Shown: piece by piece, positions 33,032-48,716 of the stretch
How positions within the stretch are numbered: position 1 is the stretch's first letter
How the letters are laid out: every line of letters begins with the position of its first letter
NCBI RefSeq assembly: GCF_016862815.1
Contig: NZ_BONR01000003.1
Coordinates: 124,001-188,000 of the forward strand
Source of the DNA: Demequina activiva
GTDB lineage: Bacteria; Actinomycetota; Actinomycetes; Actinomycetales; Demequinaceae
DNA length: 64,000 bases
Reading direction: 5' to 3'
Notes under the pieces: model-generated
Seen by the model: the letters and a program-made list of their open reading frames with translations, nothing else
Database searches by the model: none
What the model was told of the DNA's origin: nothing
Program-made: the position numbers and the translations under genes

Positions 33032-35017
33032 ATGCCCGCGCCAGCCGAAGTCGAATCCCCCATGCCCGCTGCTCACGAGAGTCGCGGTGGCCCGTCGCCC
33101 GTGATGATCCTCCTCGTGCTCGTGAGCACGGTGGGCATCCTGGTCTACGCCGCATTCCTGCTGAACCCCGCCAACCGCGGGGATCTCATCCCCTACGCGA
33201 TGGTGATCTCCGCGGAGACGGTGCTGGTGTTCCACGCGCTGCTGGCGATGTGGACCATCCTGTCGGGAGGCCAGGACCCACGCGACTTCGCGTACCACCG
33301 CGCACGAGACGGGCTGCACGGACGCTCGCACGGCTCGAACCCTCGTGAGTGGCCGCTGCTGATCAGCGGGCGCAGGGTCGACGTGGACGTGTTCATCACG
33401 GTGTACGGCGAGGACGTCGAGGTGATCCGGCGCACCGCCACGGCGGCGCTGGCGATGCACGGCCGCCACCGCACCTGGATCCTCGACGACGGCCGATCGG
33501 ATGAGGTGCGCGACCTCGCCCACGAGCTGGGAGCCCGCTACGTGCGCCGGCTCAGCTCCGGCGGTGCCAAGGCCGGGAACGTCAACCACGCGCTCACTCT
33601 CGCGAAGGCGGAGTTCTTCGCGATCTTCGATGCCGACTTCGTGCCCGACCCCACCTTCCTGCAGGAGACGCTGCCGTTCATGGTGGACGAGCGCGTCGCG
33701 TTCGTGCAGACGCCGCAGGCCTACGACAACCTGCACACCACGGTGGCTCGTGGCGCCGCGTACATGCAGGCGGTGTTCTACCGGTTCATCCAGCCTGGCC
33801 GCAACCGCTTCAACGCCGCGTTCTGCGTGGGCACGAACGTCCTGTTCCGGCGCGCCGCCATCGAGGACGTCGACGGCATCTGCACGGACTCCAAGTCGGA
33901 GGACGTGTGGACGTCGCTCGCCCTGCACGAGCGGGGCTGGCGCTCGGTCTTCATCCCGGAGGTGCTGGCGATGGGAGAGGCGCCGGAGACGATCGAGGCG
34001 TACTCGAAGCAGCAGCTGCGCTGGGCCACCGGCGGGTTCGAGATCCTCCTCACCCGCAACCCGCTCGCGAACCGCCGCCTCACCATGGACCAGCGCATCC
34101 AGTACTTCGTGACCGCGAGCTTCTATCTCACGGGGATCTGCCCCTTGCTGCTGCTGCTCGTGCCGCCGCTTGAGATCTACTTCGACCTGCGACCCATGAA
34201 CCTCTCGCTCACGGTGCTGACCTGGGCGCTGTACTACTGCGGCTTCTACGCGATGCAGATCCTGCTGGCCTGGTACACGCTGGGCTCCTTCCGCTGGGAG
34301 ACGCTCACGCTCGCGACCGTGTCCTTCGCGATCTACGCGAAGGCGTTCGTGAACGCGTTCACGGGCAAGGACGTGGGCTGGCAGTCCACCGGCACCGCCC
34401 GCAAGAGCTCGCCGTACAACTTCGTGATCCCCCAGATCCTGTTCTTCCAGTTCCTGCTGCTGACCTCCGCAGTCGCCATCTGGCGCGACGTCGACAACGG
34501 CGTGCTCACGCTCGCGACGGCGTGGAACGTCACCAACACGCTGATCCTCGGGGCGTTCCTCAACGCCGCGAGGCGCGAGGCGCGAGCCCTGCGCAAGGGG
34601 CGGCCGCTGTCGCCGCCCGTCGCTCCTGAGGCTGGTGAGGAGGCCGCGGTGCTGCGCACGGTCGTGGCCCGCCCGGAGGGCACTCCCTCGCGACGGCCCG
34701 CTCGTGTGGCCGTGCCTGCCCTCGACCGTGACGCCGCCTGGGCCGGTCCGGGACGCAGTCGCCGCACCGCGCCCGCGCCGCTGCCCGCGCGCCATCCCGC
34801 CCGTGTCCCCGATCCGGCACCGTTCGAGCTCGCCGCGCCGCTGCCCCGCGAAGCCCGAGTGCCGCGGCCATCGCCCGTGCGCTGGCAGCCGGTGGACCTG
34901 TCGGCGGAACGGGCGAGCGAACAGTCCGAGCAGCCGCTGCAGCGCGAGCCTCGCGAGACCGTCGCCGCGGGCACGCGTTCGTCGCGCCGAGACCACAGAA
35001 CGGAGGAGCCGTCATGA
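33032..35017 (+). CDS. Membrane-bound processive family 2 glycosyltransferase (cellulose/curdlan synthase-like)
   Basis: A 661-residue membrane synthase that should polymerise a glycan from a UDP-sugar and pass it across the membrane. Two helices lie near 27-47 and 58-80. The cytoplasmic GT-A domain carries D152-D153 (LDDGRSDE), D200-A-D202 (IFDADFVPD), E290-D291 (SKSEDVWTS) and Q327-Q-L-R330-W331, the D,D,D,QxxRW set of BcsA/CrdS enzymes. About six helices follow. The C-terminus is a 130-residue Arg/Pro/Ala-rich tail instead of a PilZ domain, so no c-di-GMP site is visible. ATG 33032 is chosen over GTG 32933 because GGAGGTG stands 4 nt upstream. It overlaps the next gene by 4 nt. Confidence 0.92.
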   Translation: MPAPAEVESPMPAAHESRGGPSPVMILLVLVSTVGILVYAAFLLNPANRGDLIPYAMVISAETVLVFHALLAMWTILSGGQDPRDFAYHRARDGLHGRSHGSNPREWPLLISGRRVDVDVFITVYGEDVEVIRRTATAALAMHGRHRTWILDDGRSDEVRDLAHELGARYVRRLSSGGAKAGNVNHALTLAKAEFFAIFDADFVPDPTFLQETLPFMVDERVAFVQTPQAYDNLHTTVARGAAYMQAVFYRFIQPGRNRFNAAFCVGTNVLFRRAAIEDVDGICTDSKSEDVWTSLALHERGWRSVFIPEVLAMGEAPETIEAYSKQQLRWATGGFEILLTRNPLANRRLTMDQRIQYFVTASFYLTGICPLLLLLVPPLEIYFDLRPMNLSLTVLTWALYYCGFYAMQILLAWYTLGSFRWETLTLATVSFAIYAKAFVNAFTGKDVGWQSTGTARKSSPYNFVIPQILFFQFLLLTSAVAIWRDVDNGVLTLATAWNVTNTLILGAFLNAARREARALRKGRPLSPPVAPEAGEEAAVLRTVVARPEGTPSRRPARVAVPALDRDAAWAGPGRSRRTAPAPLPARHPARVPDPAPFELAAPLPREARVPRPSPVRWQPVDLSAERASEQSEQPLQREPRETVAAGTRSSRRDHRTEEPS

Positions 35018-35739
35018 CCTGGGGCAATCGCTTTCGTCTCCTGCTGGGCACCCTGATGGTGCTCGTGCTCGTCGCAGGAGCGACGTTCGTGTTCAATCAG
35101 CGCGCCACGCAGGTCGAGAGCAGCTCCGCGAGCATCGGCGCGGCGATGTACGGCGTCGGCACCGACTACAGCGGGCTCGTGACCGAGTCCTTCGTCACCG
35201 AGGGCGACCACGTGGGCGAGGGACAGCGCATGTTCGTGATCGAGAGCCTGCAGCTCGAGCGCGACGTCGAGAACGGGCTGGTGTCCGCGGACGAGCCGTC
35301 CGTGAACTCCGACGCAGCCTTCGTGGTGCGCGCCAGCACCTCCGGCACCGTGGGTGCGGTCGCGATCGGCGAGGGCGGCTACGCGCAGGCCGGAGACGTG
35401 CTCGCCACCATCGAGGCCGACGGCACGCTGTTCGCGCAGGCGGAGTTCGTGCTCTCCGGCCGCGACTTCGGGCGCCTCGAGGAAGCCGCGACCGTCGAGC
35501 TGATGCTTCCCGACCGCCGCACGCTCACGGGGACGGTCGCCGACATCGACGTCGAGACGCTGGACGGCGAGGCGCACGTCACCGCGCGCGTCGAGTCGAT
35601 CGCGCTGGAGGACAGCCGGGACGACGCACTGGTGAAGCCGGGCACCCCGCTCGAGGCCACCCTCGACCTGCGCGACGACGGTCCACTCGCCGGCGTCGAG
35701 GACATGGTGCGCGACTTCGCGGCGAGGATCGGGCTGTGA
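35014..35739 (+). CDS. HlyD/Alg44-like single-span membrane protein of the glucan operon
   Basis: 241 residues. One N-terminal helix (about 8-28, LLLGTLMVLVLVAGATFVF) is followed by an extracytoplasmic part with two half biotinyl-lipoyl-like motifs. The first is GLVTESFVTEGDHVGEGQRMFVIESLQLE. The second is VVRASTSGTVGAVAIGEGGYAQAGDVLATIEADG. A beta-barrel-like segment follows (SGRDFGRLEEAATVELMLPDRRTLTGTVADI). This is the membrane-fusion-protein fold found in Alg44 and in the BgsB partner of mixed-linkage glucan synthase. In a Gram-positive cell it may guide the polymer through the wall. Overlaps of 4 nt on both sides fix it in the operon. Confidence 0.87.
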   Translation: MTWGNRFRLLLGTLMVLVLVAGATFVFNQRATQVESSSASIGAAMYGVGTDYSGLVTESFVTEGDHVGEGQRMFVIESLQLERDVENGLVSADEPSVNSDAAFVVRASTSGTVGAVAIGEGGYAQAGDVLATIEADGTLFAQAEFVLSGRDFGRLEEAATVELMLPDRRTLTGTVADIDVETLDGEAHVTARVESIALEDSRDDALVKPGTPLEATLDLRDDGPLAGVEDMVRDFAARIGL

Positions 35740-37712
35740 CGGCGCGCCGCGCGAGTGCGGCGCTGCTGGCCGCGGGCCTCGCCGTCGCGATCAGCGGCTG
35801 CGACGAGGGCGACGCGCCCGCGGCGACGCCGAGCGCATCCCCGGACATCGCCGCAGACGCGGCCGCAGACGTGGCGCTCCTGCCCGAGCGGTCCGCCGCA
35901 GAGGAGGTCGTCACGCGACTGGCGGACGGCGTCCCGCCACCCACCAACCGGTGGTACTCCTCCCTGGCGTTCGGCGAGGAGGGGCTGCCGGTGTTCCCCA
36001 AGCCGCTCGCCTTCTCCACCGTCTCCGGGGGGTTCGCGGTGGGAGTGACCTCGCCCGAGGCGAGCGCCGCCGCGATCATCGCGCCGGCGCGCGCCGATGT
36101 CAGCGTGATGATCGACGGCGAGAGCGGCGCGGGCGTGGTCTCCCACGCAGGACCGTCGGACGTCGCCGTGAGCTGGGACAGCGCAGCGGTGATGCTCGCG
36201 CAGGGATGGCCGGTGGTGGGCATGACGGCGGCAACGGATCTGACCGCGACGCTCTCCGCACCGTTCGACGCAGTCTCCGAGACCCTCGCGACCGCGGAGG
36301 TCGATGGCCGCGCGTACGGGATGCGGCTGGACGGCGGGACCGTCGACGGCGCCCTGCTGACGCTCGATGAGGGCGGCTCGATCCAGCTGTTCGCCGTCCC
36401 CGAGGGCGGCGACGCGACCGCGTTCGCGGCCGCACTGAGCGAGCCCATCACGAGCCTGGGCTGGGCGGGCGCCTCTGACGGGGACACGGTGAGCACCACG
36501 CTCGACTACGGGGTGCAGACCGTGGCGACGATGCCCATGGAGCGCGCCGAGGGATCGGGGCTCGACTGCAGCCTCGGCACCTACGCGACCATCGACGGAC
36601 CGTTCGCAGTGTGCGCGACGCGCGAGGTGACGTGGAGCGTGCCCGCGGTAGAGCCGTCTGCGACGCTCGACCTCGACGGCGTCACGGCCGAGCAGGAGGC
36701 GGAGATCCGCGCGCAGCTGCTGGCCGACGCCGCGAGCATCCCGCCGCTGCCCTCCGACACGTACTTTGGCGGCAAGGCGCTCGCACGCCTCGCGAACCTC
36801 GTGTCGCTGGCGCAGGCCCTCGGGGAGGACGAGGCCGCCCAGGACGTCCTCGCGGTGCTGTCCCCTGCCCTGCGGGAGTGGGGCGACCCACAGCGCTGCG
36901 CGAGCGCGGACGCCCGCTGCTTCGTGTACGACACAGAGCTCGAGGGCGTCGTGGGACTCACGCCGTCGTTCGGCTCGGAGCAGTTCAACGATCATCACTT
37001 CCACTACGGCTACTTCCTGTACGCCGCGGCGGTGGCAGTCGAGGCCGAGCCCGCGCTGGCCGACGAGATCGGCCCCGTGTTCGACCTGGTCGCCGCGGAC
37101 ATCGCTGGCACCGGAGGGCCGATGCCTGCGATGCGGGTGTTCGACCCCGTCGCCGGCCACTCGTGGGCCTCCGGCTTCTCTCCCTTCGCGGACGGCAACA
37201 ACCAGGAGTCGAGCTCCGAGGCGGTCGCGGCGTGGAACGGTCTGGCCCTCTGGGCCGCCGCGCGCGGCGACGAGGCGCTCGAGCAGCGCGCCCGATGGCT
37301 GCTCGCCTCGGAGGCCGATGCGGCGCGCCGCCTGTGGCTCGCCCCCGATCTCGAGCCGTTCCCCGCGTTCGAGCACCAGATCATCGCGCTCGAGTGGGGA
37401 GCCAAGCGCGACTACGCGACCTGGTTCTCCCCCGAGCCCAGCGCGATGCTGGGAATCCAGGTGCTGCCAGCACAGCCGGCGCAGCTGGCCGTGCTGGGCG
37501 CGGTCGACGGCGAGCGAATCCAGGCCGCCGTCGACGAGGCGACGGCGCCCAGCGACGAGCTGCTCTTCGCGGACTACCTGCTGATGTACGCCTCGCTCGC
37601 AGGCGCGCAGGCGAAGGAGGACGCGTGGGACGCGGCGATCGCGTTGCCCGACGACGCGATCGACGACGGCAACTCGCGAGCGTACATGCTCGCCTGGATC
37701 GCGACCGCCTAG
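35736..37712 (+). CDS. GH81 endo-beta-1,3-glucanase lipoprotein
   Basis: A 658-residue surface enzyme. The start MTARRASAALLAAGLAVAISGC is a lipoprotein signal with the lipobox AISGC, so it should be anchored on the outer face of the membrane. The catalytic region has the GH81 motifs FNDHHFHYGYFLYAAA, with D419, and GNNQESSSEAVAAWNGLALW, with E491 and E495. PPPTNRWYSSLAFGEEGLPVFPKPLAF near residue 68 is the family N-terminal block. GH81 enzymes cut beta-1,3-glucan chains internally. GTG 35736 overlaps the previous stop by 4 nt. As the last gene of a synthase operon it probably trims, releases or clears the polymer rather than feeding on foreign glucan. Confidence 0.92.
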   Translation: MTARRASAALLAAGLAVAISGCDEGDAPAATPSASPDIAADAAADVALLPERSAAEEVVTRLADGVPPPTNRWYSSLAFGEEGLPVFPKPLAFSTVSGGFAVGVTSPEASAAAIIAPARADVSVMIDGESGAGVVSHAGPSDVAVSWDSAAVMLAQGWPVVGMTAATDLTATLSAPFDAVSETLATAEVDGRAYGMRLDGGTVDGALLTLDEGGSIQLFAVPEGGDATAFAAALSEPITSLGWAGASDGDTVSTTLDYGVQTVATMPMERAEGSGLDCSLGTYATIDGPFAVCATREVTWSVPAVEPSATLDLDGVTAEQEAEIRAQLLADAASIPPLPSDTYFGGKALARLANLVSLAQALGEDEAAQDVLAVLSPALREWGDPQRCASADARCFVYDTELEGVVGLTPSFGSEQFNDHHFHYGYFLYAAAVAVEAEPALADEIGPVFDLVAADIAGTGGPMPAMRVFDPVAGHSWASGFSPFADGNNQESSSEAVAAWNGLALWAAARGDEALEQRARWLLASEADAARRLWLAPDLEPFPAFEHQIIALEWGAKRDYATWFSPEPSAMLGIQVLPAQPAQLAVLGAVDGERIQAAVDEATAPSDELLFADYLLMYASLAGAQAKEDAWDAAIALPDDAIDDGNSRAYMLAWIATA

Positions 37713-37719
37713 CCGGAGG

Positions 37720-37750
37720 CAGTCGGGCGGTGCCAGCCACCGCCCGACTG
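37720..37750. terminator. Terminator of the glucan operon
   Basis: 13-bp perfect arms (CAGTCGGGCGGTG and its complement) around a 5-nt loop, 7 nt past the GH81 stop. A copy of the dispersed 10-mer follows at 37774. Confidence 0.88.
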
Positions 37751-37816: not shown

Positions 37817-38755
37817 GTGAGCGAGAACCTCAGTCGACCGGGCCTCGCCTTCGGCGCCGGCGCGTACCTGGTCTGGGGAACCTTCCCCCTGCTCATGAAT
37901 GCCCTGAGGCCCGCGGGCGCCCTCGAGATCACCGCGCATCGGGCCGTCTGGTCCGTGCTGGTGTGCTTCGTGATCGTCGCGGTGATGCGCGGCTGGCGGC
38001 GGCTGCGCGCCGCGCTCGTGAACCGCCGCACGCTGGGCGTGCTGGCGGTCGCCGCCTTCTTCATCGCGATCAACTGGCTCATCTACGTGTACGCCGTGGT
38101 GACCGACCACGTGAACTCCGCCGCGCTCGGGTACTACATCAACCCGCTGTTCACGGTCGCGCTGGGCGTGATCTTCCTGGGCGAGCGGCTGAGGCGCCTG
38201 CAGGTGGTCGCGATCGGCATCGCCGTGGCGGCCGTGGTGGTGATCGGCGTGGGGCTGGGCGAGTTCCCGTGGATCGCGCTCGCGCTCGCGACCTCGTTCG
38301 GCCTGTACGGGCTCATCAAGAAGCGGGTGGGCGGGTCCGTCGACGCGATCACGGGGCTCACCGTCGAGACACTGGTGCTGCTGCCCGTCGCTCTCGTGGG
38401 CCTGTGGTGGATCCAGGAGACCGGGCGCGGCACGTTCGGCGAGCGCGGCGAGGAGGGCCTGGGACTCGGTCACGACCTGCTGCTGATGTCGACGGGCGTC
38501 TTCACCGCCGGCGCGCTGCTGCTGTTCGCCGCGGGTGCGCGGCGCCTGCCGCTCTACGTCACCGGACTGCTGCAGTACATCGCGCCCACGCTGATGTTCA
38601 TCCTGGCGGTGTGGCACTTCGGAGAGCCCATGCCAGTGTCCAGGTGCATCGGCTTCATCCTGGTATGGGTCGCGCTCGTGGTGCTCACCGTGGACGGCTG
38701 GCGCGGCCGGCCCCGACGCGGCGTCGCGCGCGTCGAGCCAGCCGAGCCCGTCTAG
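37817..38755 (+). CDS. rarD: EamA family transporter, RarD type
   Basis: 312 residues with ten membrane helices, the normal size of RarD (chloramphenicol-sensitivity protein family). The start LAFGAGAYLVWGTFPLLMNALRPAGALEITAHRAVWSVL and the segments NWLIYVYAV, LGYYINPLFTVALGVIFLGERL and LLQYIAPTLMFILAV are typical. RarD proteins are thought to export metabolites; the substrate is unknown. The stop codon shares CTAG with the stop of the convergent gene at 38752. Confidence 0.92.
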   Translation: MSENLSRPGLAFGAGAYLVWGTFPLLMNALRPAGALEITAHRAVWSVLVCFVIVAVMRGWRRLRAALVNRRTLGVLAVAAFFIAINWLIYVYAVVTDHVNSAALGYYINPLFTVALGVIFLGERLRRLQVVAIGIAVAAVVVIGVGLGEFPWIALALATSFGLYGLIKKRVGGSVDAITGLTVETLVLLPVALVGLWWIQETGRGTFGERGEEGLGLGHDLLLMSTGVFTAGALLLFAAGARRLPLYVTGLLQYIAPTLMFILAVWHFGEPMPVSRCIGFILVWVALVVLTVDGWRGRPRRGVARVEPAEPV

Positions 38756-40305
38756 TCCGTCGCGCTCCGTCCCGGGAAGTAGACGCTCCAGGCCATCTCG
38801 CTCTCGCTGGGGCCGTGCCCGAAGATCATGCCCAGCTCGGCATCCTCGATCTGTGCGGGCTGGATGCCCTCGCACGCAAGGGCCAGGTCCGACACATCGC
38901 CGATGTACCAGAGGTGCTCGCCGTCCAGCGATCCGGGCAAGGGAAGCAGATCGTCCTGCCCGGGACCGAACATCAGGCCCGGGTCCTCCTCGGTGTAGTG
39001 CTGCTGGCGCGCGATGATCGTGCCGTCGTCGTCGACCCAGATCAGCGCCTCGTAGACGACGTTGCCCTCGACCGCCCCGCCGATCTCGAACGACGAGCTG
39101 CTCCATCCGGAGTACTGATACAACTGGGCCTCCACTCCGGGATAGGTCTCCTCTGGTGCCCCCACGATGTATCCGCCGTCACCGAAGTCGAACTCGATGC
39201 CGGCCTCAGTGACCTCGTAGTACGAGCCCATCTTGTGCTCGACCCGGCTCGGCTGCGCGATCAGCGCCTCCGGGACGGGAGCGAGGCACTGGAAGGTGTC
39301 GGACTCCGGGCCCTCGAGGTACGCACCGGCCTCGAAGCCGACCGGCTCCGGGACGGAGCCGTCCTGGGAATCCTCCTCGAGCAGCGGCAGCGCCACACCG
39401 CATGCCGCCTCGTAGGTCTGGGAGGCGTCGTAGTGCGACGTGATCTCGTACGTCTCGCCCTCGGGGCTGGTCGCGCGGATGGAGGCACTCACGAGCCCGT
39501 CGAAGTCCCGGATCGCGGCTCCGGGCTCACCGAAGCCGATCTCGCTGACCTGCTCGTCGCCGTCGTCGTAGCGCAGCACGGACTCGACCACCGCATCCGC
39601 GCCTGCGACGGCACCCGACAAGCCCATGCCGGAGTAGCCGAGCGTGGCAGAGTGGACCTGCATCAGCGCCACCGGGTCCACCCAGCGTGGTGCGTCGTCG
39701 GGAGCCTCCGTGGTCCACTCGTAGCCCAGCTGCGGACCAGCAGGAGACGCCAGGTACGGTCCGCCGCCCCCGCCTCCGCCGAAGAAGTCGAACGCGTAGT
39801 GCACGTACGGCATGCCCGGGCCGTCCTCACCTGGGACCGAGATGGTGATGCCGGCGGCGCCGGTGGCCTCGTAGTCGCCGTCCGCGTTGCGGCGCATCTG
39901 CTCGACCGAGCCGTCGGGCGCGACGAACAGGAACTGCCCAGCGCCGTAGTCGGCGTACGCGCGGCCGCCGTACTCTGCCGGACCGAATGCCTCGGGGTTC
40001 GGGGCCGGATAGCCGTCGACGTGGCACCACTGCGGCGCTCCCGCGGCGGGCACCGGCACTCCTTCGGCGTCGTTCGGGGCCGCAACGGAGGATCCGTCGC
40101 CGCCCATGGCCGGCACGGCCACGGCGGCGAAAGCGATCGCTCCGCACGCCGCGGCGGCACCACCGACCGCGACCGCCGACCGGCGCGCGCGCCTGCGACG
40201 GATGTCGCCGAGCGCCGATGCCGGCGCGACCTCCACCCCGCTGTCCCCCAGCGCGCGGGCGTGGCCAGTGAAGGCCTCGTGCAGCACGTCCCTCAGTTCT
40301 CGCAT
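38752..40305 (-). CDS. Single-span membrane protein paired with an ECF sigma factor (possible anti-sigma)
   Basis: 517 residues of unrecognised family. The N-terminus is cytoplasmic (MRELRDVLHEAFTGHARALGD...IRRRRARR, about 1-60). One helix follows at about 62-84, then an acidic extracytoplasmic domain of 430 residues rich in Gly, Tyr and Asp, with a run of seven glycines (FFGGGGGGGPYL). ATG 40305 shares one base with the sigma-factor stop (TGATG) and has GGAGAGGGG upstream. Topology and coupling fit a membrane-bound regulator that holds the sigma factor until an outside signal comes. No known anti-sigma zinc motif (HxxxCxxC) is visible, so the role is inferred from position. Confidence 0.75.
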   Translation of the reverse strand: MRELRDVLHEAFTGHARALGDSGVEVAPASALGDIRRRRARRSAVAVGGAAAACGAIAFAAVAVPAMGGDGSSVAAPNDAEGVPVPAAGAPQWCHVDGYPAPNPEAFGPAEYGGRAYADYGAGQFLFVAPDGSVEQMRRNADGDYEATGAAGITISVPGEDGPGMPYVHYAFDFFGGGGGGGPYLASPAGPQLGYEWTTEAPDDAPRWVDPVALMQVHSATLGYSGMGLSGAVAGADAVVESVLRYDDGDEQVSEIGFGEPGAAIRDFDGLVSASIRATSPEGETYEITSHYDASQTYEAACGVALPLLEEDSQDGSVPEPVGFEAGAYLEGPESDTFQCLAPVPEALIAQPSRVEHKMGSYYEVTEAGIEFDFGDGGYIVGAPEETYPGVEAQLYQYSGWSSSSFEIGGAVEGNVVYEALIWVDDDGTIIARQQHYTEEDPGLMFGPGQDDLLPLPGSLDGEHLWYIGDVSDLALACEGIQPAQIEDAELGMIFGHGPSESEMAWSVYFPGRSATD

Positions 40306-40844
40306 CAGCGTCCCCTCTCCTTGGTCGCGACCACTGCGGCGGTCATCGGCTCCTCGTCCCATTCGTCGGTCACGTCCAGCAGCGGCGCGAGCCTCGCCGT
40401 CGCGTCATACAGGTAGCGCTTGACGGAGCCCTCGGCGAGTCCCAGCCGGTCCGCGATCTGCGGCACAGTGAGGTCGTCGAAGAAGCGCAGCACCACGCAC
40501 ACCTGCTCGCGGGGCGGGAGCTCCCGCAGGGCGCGTCGCACGTCCAGACCGGCTTCCACGTCCGAGCGCGCGGGGTCCCGCTGGAATGCCCGTGTGGTCG
40601 CACGGCGGCGGCTCGCGGCGCTGCGGGCGCGGTCGATGACGATGCTGGGCATGGCAGAGCGGACGTACGCCTCAGCCTGTCCCACAGACGCGAGGCGTCG
40701 TCTCCTGGAGAACACCTTGACCAGCGCATCGTGCACCAGGTCCTCGGCGTCCCCGTCGCGCCCCACCAGCAACGCGGCGTACGCGGTCAGCCGCGGTCCA
40801 CGCTCGCGGACCAGCTGCTCGACCAACGGCTCCCAGGACACCAT
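40305..40844 (-). CDS. ECF RNA polymerase sigma factor, SigE (actinobacterial) subfamily
   Basis: 179 residues. Sigma-2 region is at about 15-80 (LLVGRDGDAEDLVHDALVKVF and YVRSAMPSIVIDRARSA). Sigma-4 is at about 108-160 (LRELPPREQVCVVLRFFDDLTVPQIADRLGLAEGSVKRYLYDATARL). A 20-residue C-terminal extension follows. ATG 40844 has GGGGAGG 4 nt upstream. It is translationally coupled to the large membrane protein, which is probably its regulator. Targets and signal are unknown. Confidence 0.93.
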   Translation of the reverse strand: MVSWEPLVEQLVRERGPRLTAYAALLVGRDGDAEDLVHDALVKVFSRRRRLASVGQAEAYVRSAMPSIVIDRARSAASRRRATTRAFQRDPARSDVEAGLDVRRALRELPPREQVCVVLRFFDDLTVPQIADRLGLAEGSVKRYLYDATARLAPLLDVTDEWDEEPMTAAVVATKERGR

Positions 40845-42657: not shown

Positions 42658-44238
42658 TCAGCCGTTCGACAGCACCAGGAACTGCGCGGCGCTCTCGAAC
42701 ACGCTCAGCACCCCCGCGGGCAGCACGCCCAGGACGATGACGCCGGCGGCTGTCACCACGACCACGAGCGTGGCCAGGGGGCTGTCCTCGACCTCGACGG
42801 CGTCCTCGATCCCCTCGGGCACGTCGGTGAGGAACATCAGGACCACGAGGCGCACGTAGAAGAACGCCGCCACGGCAGAGGCGATCACCGCGACCAGCAC
42901 CAGCGGCCAGCCGCCACCGGCGATCGCCGCGGAGAACACCTCGAACTTCCCGATGAAGCCCGCGGTCAGCGGGATGCCGGCGAAGGACAGGAGGAACAGG
43001 GCCATCGCGCCCGCCAGCAGCGGCGAGCGCTTGCCCAGCCCTGCCCACTGGCCCAGCCGCACCGCCTCCGCGCCCACGGAGCCGTCCTCGGTGCGCTCGC
43101 GCACCTGGGAGACCACCGCGAACGCGCCGATCGTGGCGAGGCCGTACGCCAGCAGGTAGAACGGCAGCGCTGCCACGGCCTCGTTCGTGAGGCCAGCGAA
43201 GGCGACGAGGATGAAGCCCGCGTGCGCCACGGACGAGTACGCCAGCATGCGCTTGACGTTGGTCTGCACGAGCGCCAGGACGGTTCCCAGGACCATCGAG
43301 AGACACGCGACCGCCCAGATCATCCAGCTGATCTCCCACTCGAGCGGGTACAGCGACGTGTACAGGATGCGCACGAGCGCAGCGGTGGCCGCAGCCTTGG
43401 TCGCCGCACCCATGAACGCGGTGACGGGCGTGGGCGCGCCCTGGTAGGCGTCCGGGGTCCAGGAGTGGAACGGCACCGCGCCCAGCTTGAACAGCAGGCC
43501 CACGAGCACCAGCACGACGCCCGTGAGCAGCAGCGGGTCACGGTCGCTGATGACGTCGATCGCGCGTCCCACGGGGGCGAACGAGGTCTGGGTGGTGGCG
43601 CCGTAGATGAGCGCCACGCCGAAGATGTAGATCGCTGACGAGAACGCGCCCAGCAGGAAGTACTTGAGCGCGGCCTCGTGCGACATCAGGCGACGTCGGC
43701 GCGCGAGCGCCACCAGGATGTACAGCGCCAGGGAGAACACCTCGAGTGCGACGAACAGGAACACGAAGTCCGTGACGCAGGTGAAGAGCATCATGCCGCC
43801 CACGGCGAAGAGCAGCAGCGGGAAGACCTCGGTCACCTCGAGCCCGCGGCGGCGCGCGAGGGTCTCCTCGAGCGAACCGGGGCTCGCGGATCCCAACGCG
43901 GTGAACGCAGGCTCGCCCGCGCGGGTGCGCGCGGCGAACAGGATGATCCCCAGGATGCCGAACACGAGGATGACGGTCTGCCATGCGAGGGCCTGGCGGT
44001 CCACGGTGAGCATGAACTGCATGACCGTGGTGCCACCGCCCTCGAGGGCGGCCCACTGCGCGATCGTGGTGCCCAGCGCGGCGATCAGCACCACCAGCCC
44101 GAACCCGAGCTGGATGGTGCGGCGCGTCGCCGGGCGCCGCACGAAAGCCTCGATGAGCACGCCGATGGCGGCGGCCCCCAGGACGATGATGATGGGCGCC
44201 AGCGGAGCCCAGGCGATCTCAGGAGTCACGAAGTTCAC
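42658..44238 (-). CDS. nuoN: NADH-quinone oxidoreductase subunit N
   Basis: A 526-residue antiporter-like subunit of the complex I membrane arm, about 14 helices. Family blocks include VALEVFSLALYILVAL with the key Glu, AALKYFLLGAFSSAIYIFGVALIYG with the conserved Lys, KLGAVPFHSWTPDAYQGAPTPVTAFM and LAYSSVAHAGFILV. GTG 44238 overlaps the nuoM stop by 4 nt. Confidence 0.96.
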   Translation of the reverse strand: MNFVTPEIAWAPLAPIIIVLGAAAIGVLIEAFVRRPATRRTIQLGFGLVVLIAALGTTIAQWAALEGGGTTVMQFMLTVDRQALAWQTVILVFGILGIILFAARTRAGEPAFTALGSASPGSLEETLARRRGLEVTEVFPLLLFAVGGMMLFTCVTDFVFLFVALEVFSLALYILVALARRRRLMSHEAALKYFLLGAFSSAIYIFGVALIYGATTQTSFAPVGRAIDVISDRDPLLLTGVVLVLVGLLFKLGAVPFHSWTPDAYQGAPTPVTAFMGAATKAAATAALVRILYTSLYPLEWEISWMIWAVACLSMVLGTVLALVQTNVKRMLAYSSVAHAGFILVAFAGLTNEAVAALPFYLLAYGLATIGAFAVVSQVRERTEDGSVGAEAVRLGQWAGLGKRSPLLAGAMALFLLSFAGIPLTAGFIGKFEVFSAAIAGGGWPLVLVAVIASAVAAFFYVRLVVLMFLTDVPEGIEDAVEVEDSPLATLVVVVTAAGVIVLGVLPAGVLSVFESAAQFLVLSNG

Positions 44239-45728
44239 GCGCCGGCCTCCTCGATGGCGACCTGCGACACCGCGTCAGCGGACGGGGCGCTCAGGTAGTC
44301 GATGGCGATGCCCGGCAGGAAGCCGAGCAGCAGCATGAGGGCGATCAGCGGGCCCACGACGAGCCGCTCGCGCACGGTGAGCTCGCGCGTGGCGGCGAGC
44401 TCCTCGCGCGGCGGGCCGGTGAACACCCTCTTGTAGGTGAGCAGGATGTACAGGGCGGCCAGCACCACCGAGATCGCGGAGATGATGACGGCGACCGCGG
44501 CGACCGGGTAGGCGCCCACGAAGACCATGATCTCCGAGATGAACGGCGACAGGCCAGGCAACGACAGCGACGACAGGCCCACCACCAGGAAGTAGCCGGC
44601 GAACACCGGCACCACCTTCTGGAGCCCGCCGTAGGCGTCGACGTCGGCGGTGCCCGTGCGGGCCACGAGGAAGCCGACCAGCAGGAACAGAGCGCCTGTC
44701 GACAGGCCATGGTTGAACATGTACAGCGCGGCGCCCTCGATGGACGTCTGCTGGAACGCGAAGATTCCCAGGATCATCACGCCGAAGTGGCTCACCGACG
44801 TGAACGACACCAGGCGCAGCATGTCCTTCTGGCCGATCGCCAGCAGCGCGCCGTAGATCACGGAGATCACGGCGAACACGATCACTCCCGGAGCTGCCCA
44901 CTGCGACGCCTCGGGGAACAGCACCAGGCACAGCGTCAGCATGCCGAAGGTGCCGATCTTGTCGAGCACGGCCACCAGCAGAGCGGTGGTGCCCGGCCGC
45001 GCAGACTCGGCCACGTCCGGCAGCCACGTGTGCACCGGCACCATGGGCGCCTTGATCGCGAACGCGAGGAAGAAGGACAGGAACAGCAGCCTCTCCGTCG
45101 TGGTGGACAGCTCGAGCCCGGTGAGCCTGTCCGTGAGGAAGCCGTCCTCGCCGCCGGGGCCCTGGAAGTACAGGGCCACGACGCCGACGAGCATGACCAG
45201 CCCGCCTGCGAGGGAGAACAGCAGGAACTTCACTGCGGCGTAGCGCCTCTGCAGACCGCCGAAGCGGCCGATGAGGAAGTACAGCGGGATCAGCATCGCC
45301 TCGAACAGGACGTAGAACAGGAACACGTCGCGCGCGGCGAAGATGCCGACCATGAAGGACAGGCTCACCAGGATCAGCGCGAGGTAGTCGCGGCGCGCCT
45401 TGAGATCCGTGTCCTCGCGCCACGCAGCCAGGATGGCGAGCGGCGTGAGGATCACGGCGAGCGCGATCAGCAGCAGGCCGAAGCCGTTGACGCCGAGGGC
45501 CCAGCTGGTGCCGATCTGCGGAATCCAGGCGTAGGTCTCAGAGAACTGGAAGGCGCCTGCATCGGCCTTGTCGAACTGCAGCGCCATGACGACGAACAGG
45601 ACGAGCTCGAGGCCGGTGACGCCGATCGCGATCTCCCGCGAGCGGGCACGCGCGGGAGCGGGCAGGGCCCACAGCAGCGCGGCGCCCGCGGCGGGGAGCG
45701 CGACGAGGATGGTCAGGAACGGGAACAC
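44235..45728 (-). CDS. nuoM: NADH-quinone oxidoreductase subunit M
   Basis: A 497-residue proton-pumping antiporter-like subunit, about 14 helices. It has FYVLFEAMLIPLYFLIGRFGG, with the helix-5 Glu, the conserved Lys in VKFLLFSLAGGLVML, and AFAIKAPMVPVHTWLPDVAESARPGTTALL and SVSHFGVMILGIFAF. GTG 45728 begins 3 nt after nuoL. It overlaps nuoN by 4 nt. Confidence 0.96.
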   Translation of the reverse strand: MFPFLTILVALPAAGAALLWALPAPARARSREIAIGVTGLELVLFVVMALQFDKADAGAFQFSETYAWIPQIGTSWALGVNGFGLLLIALAVILTPLAILAAWREDTDLKARRDYLALILVSLSFMVGIFAARDVFLFYVLFEAMLIPLYFLIGRFGGLQRRYAAVKFLLFSLAGGLVMLVGVVALYFQGPGGEDGFLTDRLTGLELSTTTERLLFLSFFLAFAIKAPMVPVHTWLPDVAESARPGTTALLVAVLDKIGTFGMLTLCLVLFPEASQWAAPGVIVFAVISVIYGALLAIGQKDMLRLVSFTSVSHFGVMILGIFAFQQTSIEGAALYMFNHGLSTGALFLLVGFLVARTGTADVDAYGGLQKVVPVFAGYFLVVGLSSLSLPGLSPFISEIMVFVGAYPVAAVAVIISAISVVLAALYILLTYKRVFTGPPREELAATRELTVRERLVVGPLIALMLLLGFLPGIAIDYLSAPSADAVSQVAIEEAGA

Positions 45729-45731
45729 GGC

Positions 45732-47612
45732 TTAGAGACCCCCCACCACGATGACGGCGACGACGATGACGAGACCCACGAGCATCGTCGCGGCATAGGA
45801 ACGCACCTGTCCGTTCTGGAGGCGACGGGACGCCTCGCCCAGGCCGGCCCAGCCTCGCGCCTGCTTGTTGACGGCACCGTCGACGACGGTGGCGTCCACG
45901 TAGACCAAGGTCCGTGTGAGGTGCTGGCCGGGGCGCTGCACCACGGCTCGATTGACCGAGTCCTGGAAGAAGTCGTTGCGCGCGGCGAGCGTGGCCAGGG
46001 ACGCCGAGGGCGCCGTCTCCGGCACCTCGGCGCGGCCGTACCTGAGCCATGCGAGCAGACCGCCGGCGGCGACCAGGATGAGGGTGAGGGCGATCAGCAC
46101 CGGCACGGGCAGCACGGGCTCGTGGTGCTCGGCGTGGCCGGTCACGGGCTCGAGCCAGTGAGTGAAGCGATCACCCATCGCGAGGAACAGGCCCAGGAAG
46201 GCGGAGCCCACGGCGAGGATCATCATGGGCACGGTCATGAGAGCGGGGCTCTCGTGCGGGTGCACCTCGTCGGTCCAGCGGGCCTTGCCGTGGAACGTCA
46301 TGAAGAACAGACGCGACATGTAGAAGGCCGTCAGGCCGGCGCCGATGAGCGCTGCGCCCCCGAACACCCAGGGCTGCCAGCCCTCGCCCACGAAGGCCGC
46401 CTCGATGATCTTGTCCTTGGAGAAGAAGCCGGAGAACGGCGGCACGCCGAGGATCGCGAGCCACCCGAGGCCGAACGTCACCCAGGTGACCACCATGGCG
46501 CCCTTGAGCGCGCCGAACCGGCGCATGTCGACCTGATCGTTCATCGCATGCATCACCGAGCCTGCGCCCAGGAACATGCCGGCCTTGAAGAAGCCGTGCG
46601 TGACCAGGTGGAAGATCGCGAAGGCGTAGCCGATGGGACCCAGTCCCGCGGCGAGCATCATGTAGCCGATCTGCGACATGGTCGAGGCGGCGAGCGCCTT
46701 CTTGATGTCGTCCTTGGCCATGCCGATGAGCGCACCCAGGATGAGCGTGAACGCGCCGACGGCGGCGACCACCACCTGGGCGTTGGGCGCACCGTTGAAG
46801 ATGGGGGCCGAGCGGACGATCAGGTACACACCAGCGGTCACCATGGTCGCGGCGTGGATGAGCGCGGACACGGGTGTGGGGCCCGCCATCGCGTCTCCCA
46901 GCCAGGACTGCAGCGGGAACTGCGCGGACTTGCCGCATGCGGCGAGCAGCAGCATGAGGCCGATGGCCGTCAGCTGCGCCGTGGTCGCCTCCGGTGCCTG
47001 CGACAGCACGGAGTCGAAGTCGAGCGCACCGAAGTAGCTGAACATGAGGCCCATCGCGAAGATGAGCCCCAGGTCGCCGATGCGGTTGACGAAGAACGCC
47101 TTGTTGGCGGCGGTCGCGTACTCGCGCTTGAAGTTCCAGAAGCCGATGAGCAGGTACGAGGCGAGGCCCACGCCCTCCCAGCCGACGAACAGCAGCAGGT
47201 AGGAGTCGGCGAGCACCAGCAGCAGCATCGCGGCCACGAACAGGTTCAGGTACGCGAAGAAGCGGCGGCGGTCCGCATCGTGCTCCATGTATGCCACGGA
47301 GTAGACGTGGATGAGCGTGCCCACGAACGTGATGAGCAGCACGAACGTCATCGACAGCGGGTCCACCAGCAGGCCGGCGTCGAGGTTCAGCTCCCCGCCG
47401 GGGATCCACGAGAACAGGTGCACGCTGGTGGCGCGCTCCTCGGACTCGAGGCCCAGCATCTGCAGGAAGGCGACGAAGCCCACGACGAACGCCGTGCCCG
47501 AGGCGGCGACGCCCAGCCAGTGGCCCCAGGCGTCGGCCCTGCGGCCGGCCAGCAGCAGCACTGCCGCGCTCGCCAATGGCACAGCGATGAGCAGCCAGGT
47601 CAGAGTCAGCAT
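45732..47612 (-). CDS. nuoL: NADH-quinone oxidoreductase subunit L
   Basis: A 626-residue distal antiporter-like subunit with the long lateral C-terminal helix. Motifs are [19 protein letters not shown] with its Glu, [53 protein letters not shown] and [18 protein letters not shown]. The C-terminal 100 residues carry the amphipathic helix region and a final membrane span. It starts 4 nt after nuoK. Confidence 0.96.
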
Positions 47613-47616
47613 TCCG

Positions 47617-47916
47617 TTACCCCTTCAGCTCGGCGGGCTCGTCGAGCGAGATGGTCTGGCGGGCGCGGAACAGCGCGATGATGATCGCGAGGCCCACCAC
47701 CACCTCAGCGGCGGCGACGACCATGACGAAGAACGCCATGACCTGACCGTCGAGCTGACCGTGGATGCGCGAGAACGCGACGAGCGCGAGGTTCGCGGCG
47801 TTGAGCATGAGCTCGACGCCCATGAAAGCGACGATCGCGTTGCGGCGCAGCAGCACCGCCGCAGAGCCGATCGAGAACAGGATCGCGGCGAGGATCACGA
47901 AGTTGATGGGGTTCAC
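47617..47916 (-). CDS. nuoK: NADH-quinone oxidoreductase subunit K
   Basis: 99 residues and three helices, the standard size. The two conserved membrane glutamates are seen in [18 protein letters not shown] and [21 protein letters not shown] 47916 (MNPINFVIL) is inside a larger open frame whose upstream part belongs to the shadow of nuoJ; the start overlaps the nuoJ stop by 4 nt. Confidence 0.96.
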
Positions 47917-48716
47917 TTCTGGTCCTCCTCGCCGATGCGGGGGGTGCGCTCGTCGCTGTCCGCCGAGGGCGCGCCGTTGGGGAGCTGAGAGTCCTCGGGG
48001 TTCGAGGTGTTCTCCAGTCGCGTGCGGAACTCGTCGCCGTCGGACATCTGGTGACGCGCCTCGAGCACGCGGGACACCGAGTGCTCGATGGGCTTGCCCT
48101 CCGGGTCGCGGGCCGGGACGTCGAGGGCGTTGTGGCGTGCGAACACGCCAGGCATGGGCTTGTTGACCGGGTCGGCGCCCGCGAGCACGCGCGCCGCCTG
48201 CACCTCGGACTGGGTGCGGCGCGGGGTCAGGCGCGGGGTGTGCGTCATGATGAGCGCGCCCACCGCGGCGGTGATGAGCAGCGCGCCCAGCACCTCCATC
48301 ACCAGGACGTAGCGGCCGAACAGCACCAGGGCGATCTCCTCGGGGTTGCCCACGCGGGCCGCCTGCGGAGCGATCGACACGCGGCCCAGGACGGAGATGA
48401 GCAGGAACGCGATGCCGCCTGCCGTGAAGAAGGCGATCCAGCGCTGGCCCTTGATGGTCTCCCTGGTGTCCTCGCGCTGGTCCACTCCGACGAGCATGAG
48501 GACGAACAGGAACAGCATCATGACGGCGCCGGTGTAGACGACGATCTGGACCACTCCCAGGAACGGAGCGTCGAGGCCCACGTACGCGGCGGCGAGCCCC
48601 ACCATGACGCACACGATGGACATCGCGATGTGCACGGCCTTGCGGGCGAACAGCAGCGACAGCGCCGGCACCACGGTGAGGATCGCGACGACCCAGAACA
48701 GGACGGGGCTAACCAC
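47913..48716 (-). CDS. nuoJ: NADH-quinone oxidoreductase subunit J
   Basis: 267 residues. Five helices lie in the first 170 (including [33 protein letters not shown] with the conserved Tyr-Gly-containing helix 3). A hydrophilic C-terminal tail of about 95 residues follows, a common actinobacterial addition. GTG 48716 overlaps nuoI by 8 nt. Confidence 0.95.

Follow-up and report, generated by a model that had tools for sequence, protein, structure and literature searches.

A conserved gene trio of Demequina activiva and related actinobacteria encoding a GT2 synthase, an HlyD-type adaptor and a GH81 lipoprotein: a candidate operon for curdlan-type glucan

Introduction

Curdlan is a commercial polymer, and its genetics rest on the Agrobacterium crdASC cluster, in which the HlyD-type protein CrdA, the GT2 synthase CrdS and a third protein, CrdC, are encoded in this order. 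An HlyD-type protein also accompanies a GT2 synthase in rhizobia, where the gene of BgsB overlaps that of the PilZ-less BgsA; the product of bgsBA is a mixed-linkage glucan, and the C-terminal tail of BgsA, with residues R599 and H615, binds c-di-GMP (PMC5567048). A further pairing of this kind is present in the GH8-HlyD-GT2 set of Sulfitobacter. In the bcsABZ system the GT2 fold is combined with a co-encoded secreted glucanase, an arrangement that is also seen in the locus described here. The gene adjoining those of BcsA and BcsB is of family GH8, and a Gram-positive synthase operon carrying its own glycosidase, clostridial ccsZABHI, has also been described (PMC7710045).

The curdlan of Cellulomonas has been studied for decades, and C. 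flavigena is reported to produce it (PMC3035266; PMC3544764). For C. gelida, absence of curdlan production is reported (PMC3035266). In the literature searched, the synthesis gene has only been guessed from lists of GT2 proteins, and the re-use of the polymer is unexplained. The available text of a 2013 paper gives Cfla_3154, Cfla_2615 and their equivalents as CrdS-like GT2 candidates of Cellulomonas; it names GT2 proteins only, and neither an adaptor nor a GH81 partner is mentioned in that text (PMC3544764). A 2025 paper on Actinoplanes deals with a different, multi-GT matrix cluster.

Results

The operon and its distribution

The DNA analysed was a 64,000-nt stretch (the window) of the Demequina activiva genome (GCF_016862815.1, NZ_BONR01000003.1). 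An earlier note on this DNA described three genes joined by 4-nt overlaps and followed by a 13-bp stem, and all of these features were confirmed in the sequence (Table 1). The fold z of the hairpin is -3.4, and none of 200 shuffled sequences folded equally well; because no T-run follows the stem, it can only be called terminator-like. No sigma-70-type promoter was found upstream of the operon.

Table 1. Features of the operon (33032-37712), in positions of the window
Feature	Position	Strand	Remarks
GT2 processive beta-glucan synthase (predicted)	33032..35017	+	661 aa, ATG start
HlyD/BgsB-type membrane-fusion adaptor	35014..35739	+	241 aa, ATG start
GH81 endo-beta-1,3-glucanase lipoprotein (predicted)	35736..37712	+	658 aa, GTG start, lipobox AISG/C22
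ATGA overlap, 4 nt: synthase stop / adaptor start	35014..35017	+	-4 spacing in 51/66 copies
GTGA overlap, 4 nt: adaptor stop / GH81 start	35736..35739	+	in-frame RTGA in 48/66 copies
GC-rich hairpin, 13-bp stem, 3' of operon	37720..37750	+	terminator-like

The trio was found beside every synthase relative of at least 52% identity whose flanks were read, nearly always in the same order, the carriers being Demequina, Agromyces, Cellulomonas and other genera of the order. Recurrence of the gene order over several families, mostly with the same 4-nt overlap, is far beyond chance, and an isolated chance neighbourhood is thereby ruled out. Phage or plasmid cargo was also rejected, as only weak GT2 matches (30-41%) were found there. 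These comparisons show that the synthase, adaptor and GH81 genes form a genuine conserved unit, which is probably translationally coupled.

Co-occurrence of synthase and GH81 was counted over 126 genomes. Of the genomes that have the synthase, GH81 was present in all 27 of Demequina and in 51 of the 52 of Cellulomonas, and in none of the 47 synthase-less genomes of the two genera (0/17 and 0/30, respectively). The D. activiva genome has no second GH81 besides the operon copy. Genomes assigned to C. flavigena 134T, C. fimi and C. gilvus all contain the trio. Tandem copies of synthase and adaptor also occur, some of them lacking a separate GH81; wherever their surroundings were read, a GH81 gene lies next to them.

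The synthase

The first gene product matches Pfam Glyco_tranf_2_3 (E=6.6e-27) and is composed of membrane segments, a GT2 domain and a low-complexity C-terminal tail of about 130 aa. Its motifs DDG, DAD, SED and QQLRW correspond to the GT2 signature D, D, ED, QxxRW, which the earlier note had rightly called intact. No Pfam match to PilZ was obtained for the synthase, and no PilZ was found elsewhere in the Demequina genome. Identity is 31-33% to three BcsA proteins, 30% to a CrdS orthologue and 28-29% to BgsA; with these low values, the description of the synthase as BcsA/CrdS-like holds at the level of the superfamily but not more closely.

In all 20 trio synthases compared the gating loop is W-x-x-T-G, and the FxVTxK motif of BcsA, which CrdS retains, is absent. 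The motifs DAD, SED and QxxRW are shared with CrdS. At three channel-entrance sites (BcsA numbering) the trio synthases have Q276, Q298 and R/K309, as in CrdS and BgsA, whereas the BcsA residues are H, N or G, and L or N, respectively. Since Q276/Q298/K309 is common to most of the other non-BcsA GT2 proteins compared, the pattern is an argument against BcsA rather than for curdlan. Among the residues described as differential for CrdS (Gln237, Gln259, Lys270, His374, Trp422, Glu439 and His442; PMC6821405), the first three are matched by the trio synthases (Q, Q, R/K), the sites aligned to His374, Glu439 and His442 are not, and the region of Trp422 is unreliably aligned.

In the phylogenetic tree CrdS was represented by an orthologue, recognized as such by ten published residues at the same numbering, a crdASC-like layout and the CrdA N-terminus. 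The trio synthases formed an actinobacterial clade of their own, which grouped neither with BcsA nor with CrdS/BgsA. A constrained clade of trio and CrdS/BgsA was rejected (AU p=0.0003), and so was one of BcsA and trio. Grouping with cellulose synthases, which the earlier note had named as evidence against its proposal, was thus not observed in this tree, built without hyaluronan synthases.

The best named models for the synthase are nevertheless cellulose synthases (TIGR03030, 242 bits; BcsA of the PDB, 173 bits), as would be expected if it made either cellulose or a polymer of the glucosamine type, with foreign glucan of fungal or algal walls as the target of the GH81. However, 242 bits is far below the equivalog cut-off of 699 bits of TIGR03030, BcsA is a separate clade (see above), and the bcsABZ system differs from the trio in having PilZ, BcsB and GH8, with neither a BcsB nor a GH8 gene adjoining the trio, as well as in its FxVTxK gate and in TED in place of SED. 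Taking into account also that a GH81 of catabolic function is hardly expected to follow the presence and absence of the synthase gene over 126 genomes, we regard this possibility as very improbable. The clostridial ccsZABHI operon differs from the trio in its cellulose product, its acetylation genes and its GH5 enzyme CcsZ, which has little or no activity on curdlan.

The adaptor

The second gene product matches HlyD_3 (E=1.6e-10) and consists of one N-terminal helix (the anchor), two lipoyl-like (barrel-sandwich) halves and a beta-barrel. Only a short helix (79-86) lies between the lipoyl halves; the long alpha-helical hairpin, usual in Gram-negative HlyD/membrane-fusion members although not in all of them, is absent. 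The claim that a membrane-fusion partner is unusual did not hold, because CrdA and BgsB are HlyD-type proteins as well. A close relationship to CrdA, which differs from the adaptor in its length (484 aa) and long insert, was rejected (profile E=0.19). The N-terminus aligns with that of BgsB (profile E=1.9e-5). Gene order is synthase-adaptor-GH81 in the trio and A-S-C in crdASC, whereas bgsBA has two genes with the adaptor first and no hydrolase.

The relationship to BgsB and the residues Q276, Q298 and R309, shared with BgsA, would be compatible with a mixed-linkage (1,3;1,4)-beta-glucan like those of BgsA and Romboutsia RiGT2, in which the GH81 would cut only the 1,3 runs. A Gram-positive mixed-linkage synthase is already known (PMC10374906). 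In contrast, the constant partner is a GH81 and not a lichenase-type enzyme, low identity and the rejected clade (see above) set the synthase apart from BgsA and its kin, and curdlan is the only chemotype reported for a carrier genus in the available text of the literature searched. A mixed-linkage product is, on these grounds, unlikely.

The GH81 lipoprotein

GH81 is a family of beta-1,3-glucanases. The third gene product matches Glyco_hydro81C (E=3.8e-48), and its description as a lipobox-bearing GH81 with catalytic acids was borne out: in addition to the lipobox AISGC, motifs of the NDHHFHYG and GNNQESSSEA types are kept in 12 relatives, in all of which the Asp of NDHHFH and both Glu of NNQES-SE, aligned to solved GH81 structures, are invariant. 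Within the second motif, the first Glu aligns with an Ala of the CtLam81A entry 6fop, which is titled mutant E515A. The predicted structure (pLDDT 87) matched 6fop, 5t4a, 4k35 and 5xbz over its full length with TM values of 0.79-0.83 (0.83 to 6fop), the next-best folds scoring 0.25 or lower. A relationship between CrdC and GH81 was rejected by profile comparison (hhalign E=0.42), and the match of CrdC to an endo-beta-1,2-glucanase was no more than borderline.

Discussion

The operon probably serves the production and handling of a glucan of the curdlan type (beta-1,3-), a reading to which we assign a probability of roughly 70 per cent. In the genome comparisons, the constant GH81 neighbour and the presence of the trio in C. 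flavigena point to beta-1,3-glucan, and the combination of GT2 and HlyD is the layout of both crdASC (beta-1,3-glucan) and bgsBA (mixed-linkage glucan). Against this reading, the synthase is outside the CrdS/BgsA clade and has no equivalents of CrdS His374, Glu439 and His442. The cited curdlan work was done with C. flavigena strain KU, and the genome compared here is that of strain 134T. C. fimi, reported as a weak curdlan maker, carries the trio; C. gilvus likewise.

The synthase would polymerise glucose from UDP-glucose and thread the growing chain through its own membrane channel, and the membrane-anchored adaptor would guide the chain off the membrane on the outer face; an adaptor without a long hairpin would be in keeping with a cell envelope that has no outer membrane. 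The GH81 lipoprotein would be attached to the outer leaflet and cut consecutive beta-1,3 bonds there; it may set chain length, release stuck chains or later recover sugar. The earlier note proposed that the operon makes a beta-1,3-containing glucan, passes it through the wall and trims it. The GH81 partner and C. flavigena support the first part of this proposal, whereas passage through the wall is a presumed step, and so is a trimming rather than a recycling role of the GH81.

The role of the GH81 could also lie outside export, in the recycling of the same beta-1,3-glucan as an extracellular reserve or sheath, which is compatible with the product proposed above. In C. flavigena a storage function has been proposed for curdlan, and the re-use of the polymer is left unexplained in the available text of the 2013 genome paper (PMC3544764); a cell-anchored lipoprotein would suit the keeping of products, and some tandem synthase-adaptor copies lack their own GH81. 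The mostly conserved 4-nt overlaps, however, imply co-translation with the synthase, which is better suited to an editing partner, and the tandem copies with neighbourhood read adjoin a GH81 gene. We consider recycling quite possible, if somewhat short of probable.

Among present candidates for the curdlan machinery of actinobacteria, the trio is the best. Map position suggests that Cfla_3154 and its counterparts are the trio synthase, and one Cellulomonas GT2 in the 2013 CrdS-like list is thus probably this protein; the full gene set in C. flavigena was previously unrecognised in the literature searched. More tentatively, the trio may represent an actinobacterial lineage of beta-1,3-glucan synthases in its own right, with a WxxTG gate independent of PilZ and c-di-GMP, a hairpin-less adaptor carrying the chain into the thick wall and a co-translated GH81 setting chain length, that is, a Gram-positive counterpart of crdASC with its own origin.

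The conserved operon in C. flavigena and its relatives gives experiments a named candidate synthase gene and an enzyme to work on, and the trio would offer a clean case for the passage of an insoluble glucan through the Gram-positive wall.

Organization of the operon

The three genes lie head to tail on one strand, and their coordinates (Table) bear out the 4-nt overlaps claimed for both junctions in the earlier note. The 13-bp terminator also claimed there holds in part: a perfect 13-bp hairpin is present 3' of the GH81 gene (fold z -3.4), but it is not followed by a T-run. Since the flanking genes code for a sulfite reductase (upstream) and for an EamA transporter and an ECF sigma factor (downstream), the operon stands alone. 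The synthase and GH81 genes are each present in a single copy in the 2.47-Mb host genome. The ECF sigma factor gene and an adjoining gene without Pfam match, both oriented opposite to the operon, possibly form a sigma/anti-sigma pair. Further downstream, a 4-kb bin has the lowest G+C of the window and a marked AT skew.

Features in the window and in relatives (plain coordinates refer to the window; L, loci from relatives; G, genomes)
Feature	Position	Strand	Remark
GT2 synthase	33032-35017	+	661 aa
HlyD-like protein (adaptor)	35014-35739	+	241 aa
GH81 lipoprotein	35736-37712	+	658 aa, GTG start
ECF sigma factor gene	40305-40844	-
ECF sigma factor gene with neighbour	38752-40844		neighbour 536 aa
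Low-G+C bin	44001-48000		G+C 0.682, AT skew 0.236
Long-tailed synthase paralogues	L039:7827-9329, L046:6061-7605, L051:11153-12634, L052:7840-9396, L053:8023-9534
Broken synthase and GH81 frames	L136:7034-11582		D. litorisediminis NBRC 112299
Additional full-length GH81	G027:C3:76153-78129		47% identity
GH8-HlyD-GT2 set	L151:2625-6872		Sulfitobacter indolifex plasmid
CrdC-type proteins	L147:6908-8188, L149:3724-4890

Conservation of the gene trio

Orthologues of the synthase, at about 52-86% identity, occur in 27 of 44 Demequina and 52 of 82 Cellulomonas genomes, in 16 more genomes of the order and in Agromyces bauzanensis. Wherever their flanks were read, the order was GT2-HlyD-GH81 on the same strand, with HlyD immediately after GT2; the exceptions were contig ends, one rearranged locus (L052) in which GH81 precedes GT2-HlyD, and extra tandem GT2-HlyD copies which have no GH81 of their own, yet adjoin a GH81 gene. 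No HlyD or GH81 neighbour was detected at GT2s of about 31-41% identity in other actinobacteria. Of the synthase-bearing genomes, all 27 from Demequina and 51 of 52 from Cellulomonas also had a trio-type GH81; the one without it, G737, is a fragmented draft. No such GH81 occurred in the 47 genomes that lack the synthase in these two genera (Fisher's test, 1.5e-12 for Demequina and 1.4e-21 for Cellulomonas, ignoring shared ancestry). Among 66 copies, a set that takes in tandem copies and one genome twice (L084 = L133), the synthase/adaptor spacing was -4 in 51, and an in-frame RTGA overlap led into GH81 in 48.

Some Demequina synthase paralogues carry low-complexity C-terminal tails of roughly 380-560 aa, rich in Pro, Gly, Tyr and Gln; they are followed by an HlyD gene, with GH81 absent downstream. 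In D. litorisediminis the synthase and GH81 frames are broken at several places, which reflects either pseudogenisation or draft-sequence errors (assembly G010 is rated 50% complete). The additional GH81 of genome G027 is not on the contig of that genome's trio.

Phylogeny and sequence features of the synthase

As CrdS reference we used the 655-aa protein of an Agrobacterium plasmid (L147), which has all ten AtumCrdS residues given in PMC6821405 at identical numbering. The gene preceding it is of HlyD type, its product starting with MLFRN in agreement with the crdA primer MLFRNK (PMC4327974), and a CrdC-like gene follows. The CrdC-type proteins of L147 and L149 may be glycosidase-like, because they show borderline similarity to endo-beta-1,2-glucanase (E about 0.001-0.009).

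A phylogeny, proposed as a check in the earlier note, was computed for 46 GT2s, with L147 counted in the HlyD-linked alpha group. The 20 trio synthases formed one clade (100/100), BcsA a separate one (99/96), and CrdS/BgsA with their alphaproteobacterial kin a third (100/99). In AU tests chosen after the tree had been seen, joining the trio and its nearest relative (L104) to CrdS/BgsA was rejected (p 0.0003), as was joining them to BcsA (p 0.0004). The trio synthase is thus outside the BcsA clade, but does not belong to the CrdS/BgsA clade either. Its identity is 30% to CrdS, 28-29% to BgsA and 31-33% to three BcsA proteins.

The trio shares Q, Q and R/K with CrdS and BgsA at three sites of the channel entrance, where R. 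sphaeroides BcsA has H, N and L; this pattern is common to most other non-BcsA rows. The trio differs at the sites equivalent to CrdS His374, Glu439 and His442. Its gating loop reads WxxTG, in place of the FxVTxK of the BcsA, CrdS-type and BgsA rows (save one conservative change). No PilZ match was found in the synthase or elsewhere in the host genome, which has seven GGDEF domains. Taking into account the clade, the channel sites, the gate and the absence of PilZ, the linkage is not settled by the synthase sequence by itself; most of the argument comes from the GH81 partner and from the link to known producers.

Models of the adaptor and the GH81 protein

The adaptor model (pLDDT 82, pTM 0.61) consists of a single long N-terminal helix, lipoyl-type halves and a beta-barrel, and resembles ZneB, EmrA and MexA, but has only a short helix in place of the long hairpin of Gram-negative adaptors. 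The protein is also much shorter than R. etli BgsB (410 aa), with which its N-terminus aligns (E=1.9e-5), and the CrdA orthologue (484 aa). The GH81 model (pLDDT 87, pTM 0.89) aligns with GH81 enzymes along its entire length (TM 0.79-0.83), including the N-terminal domain, though this was not reported by the Pfam scan.

From family knowledge, the synthase would most likely form the polymer from UDP-glucose and extrude it, the adaptor would guide the glucan outward and the GH81 lipoprotein would cut it, either editing it during export or serving later sugar recovery; both may hold.

Relation to known systems and to curdlan producers

The earlier note called it unusual for a Gram-positive synthase to be paired with a membrane-fusion partner and a GH81 editor. 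A membrane-fusion partner is not unusual: GT2 with HlyD is also the layout of crdASC and bgsBA. Synthase-dependent systems commonly encode a hydrolase as well (BcsZ, CcsZ; PMC7710045). What is new is that the partner is a GH81, that the cell is Gram-positive and its adaptor lacks the hairpin, that the synthase belongs to a clade of its own with a changed gate, and that the set is so widely conserved. The trio is described in no paper found in the searched literature, outside which subscription papers mostly fall. The GH8-HlyD-GT2 set of Sulfitobacter indolifex is a Gram-negative parallel of synthase, adaptor and hydrolase.

The trio is present in genomes assigned to C. flavigena 134T, C. fimi and C. 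gilvus (L178-L180). According to PMC3544764 and PMC3035266, curdlan is abundant in C. flavigena and scarce in other species. In the 4.12-Mb C. flavigena genome the trio synthase lies at 3.50 Mb, close to the position that an estimate from gene density, not the locus tag, gives for Cfla_3154, which PMC3544764 lists with Cfla_2615 as a CrdS-like candidate. How C. flavigena re-uses its own curdlan was left unexplained in PMC3544764; a GH81 lipoprotein adjoining the synthase would be one answer.
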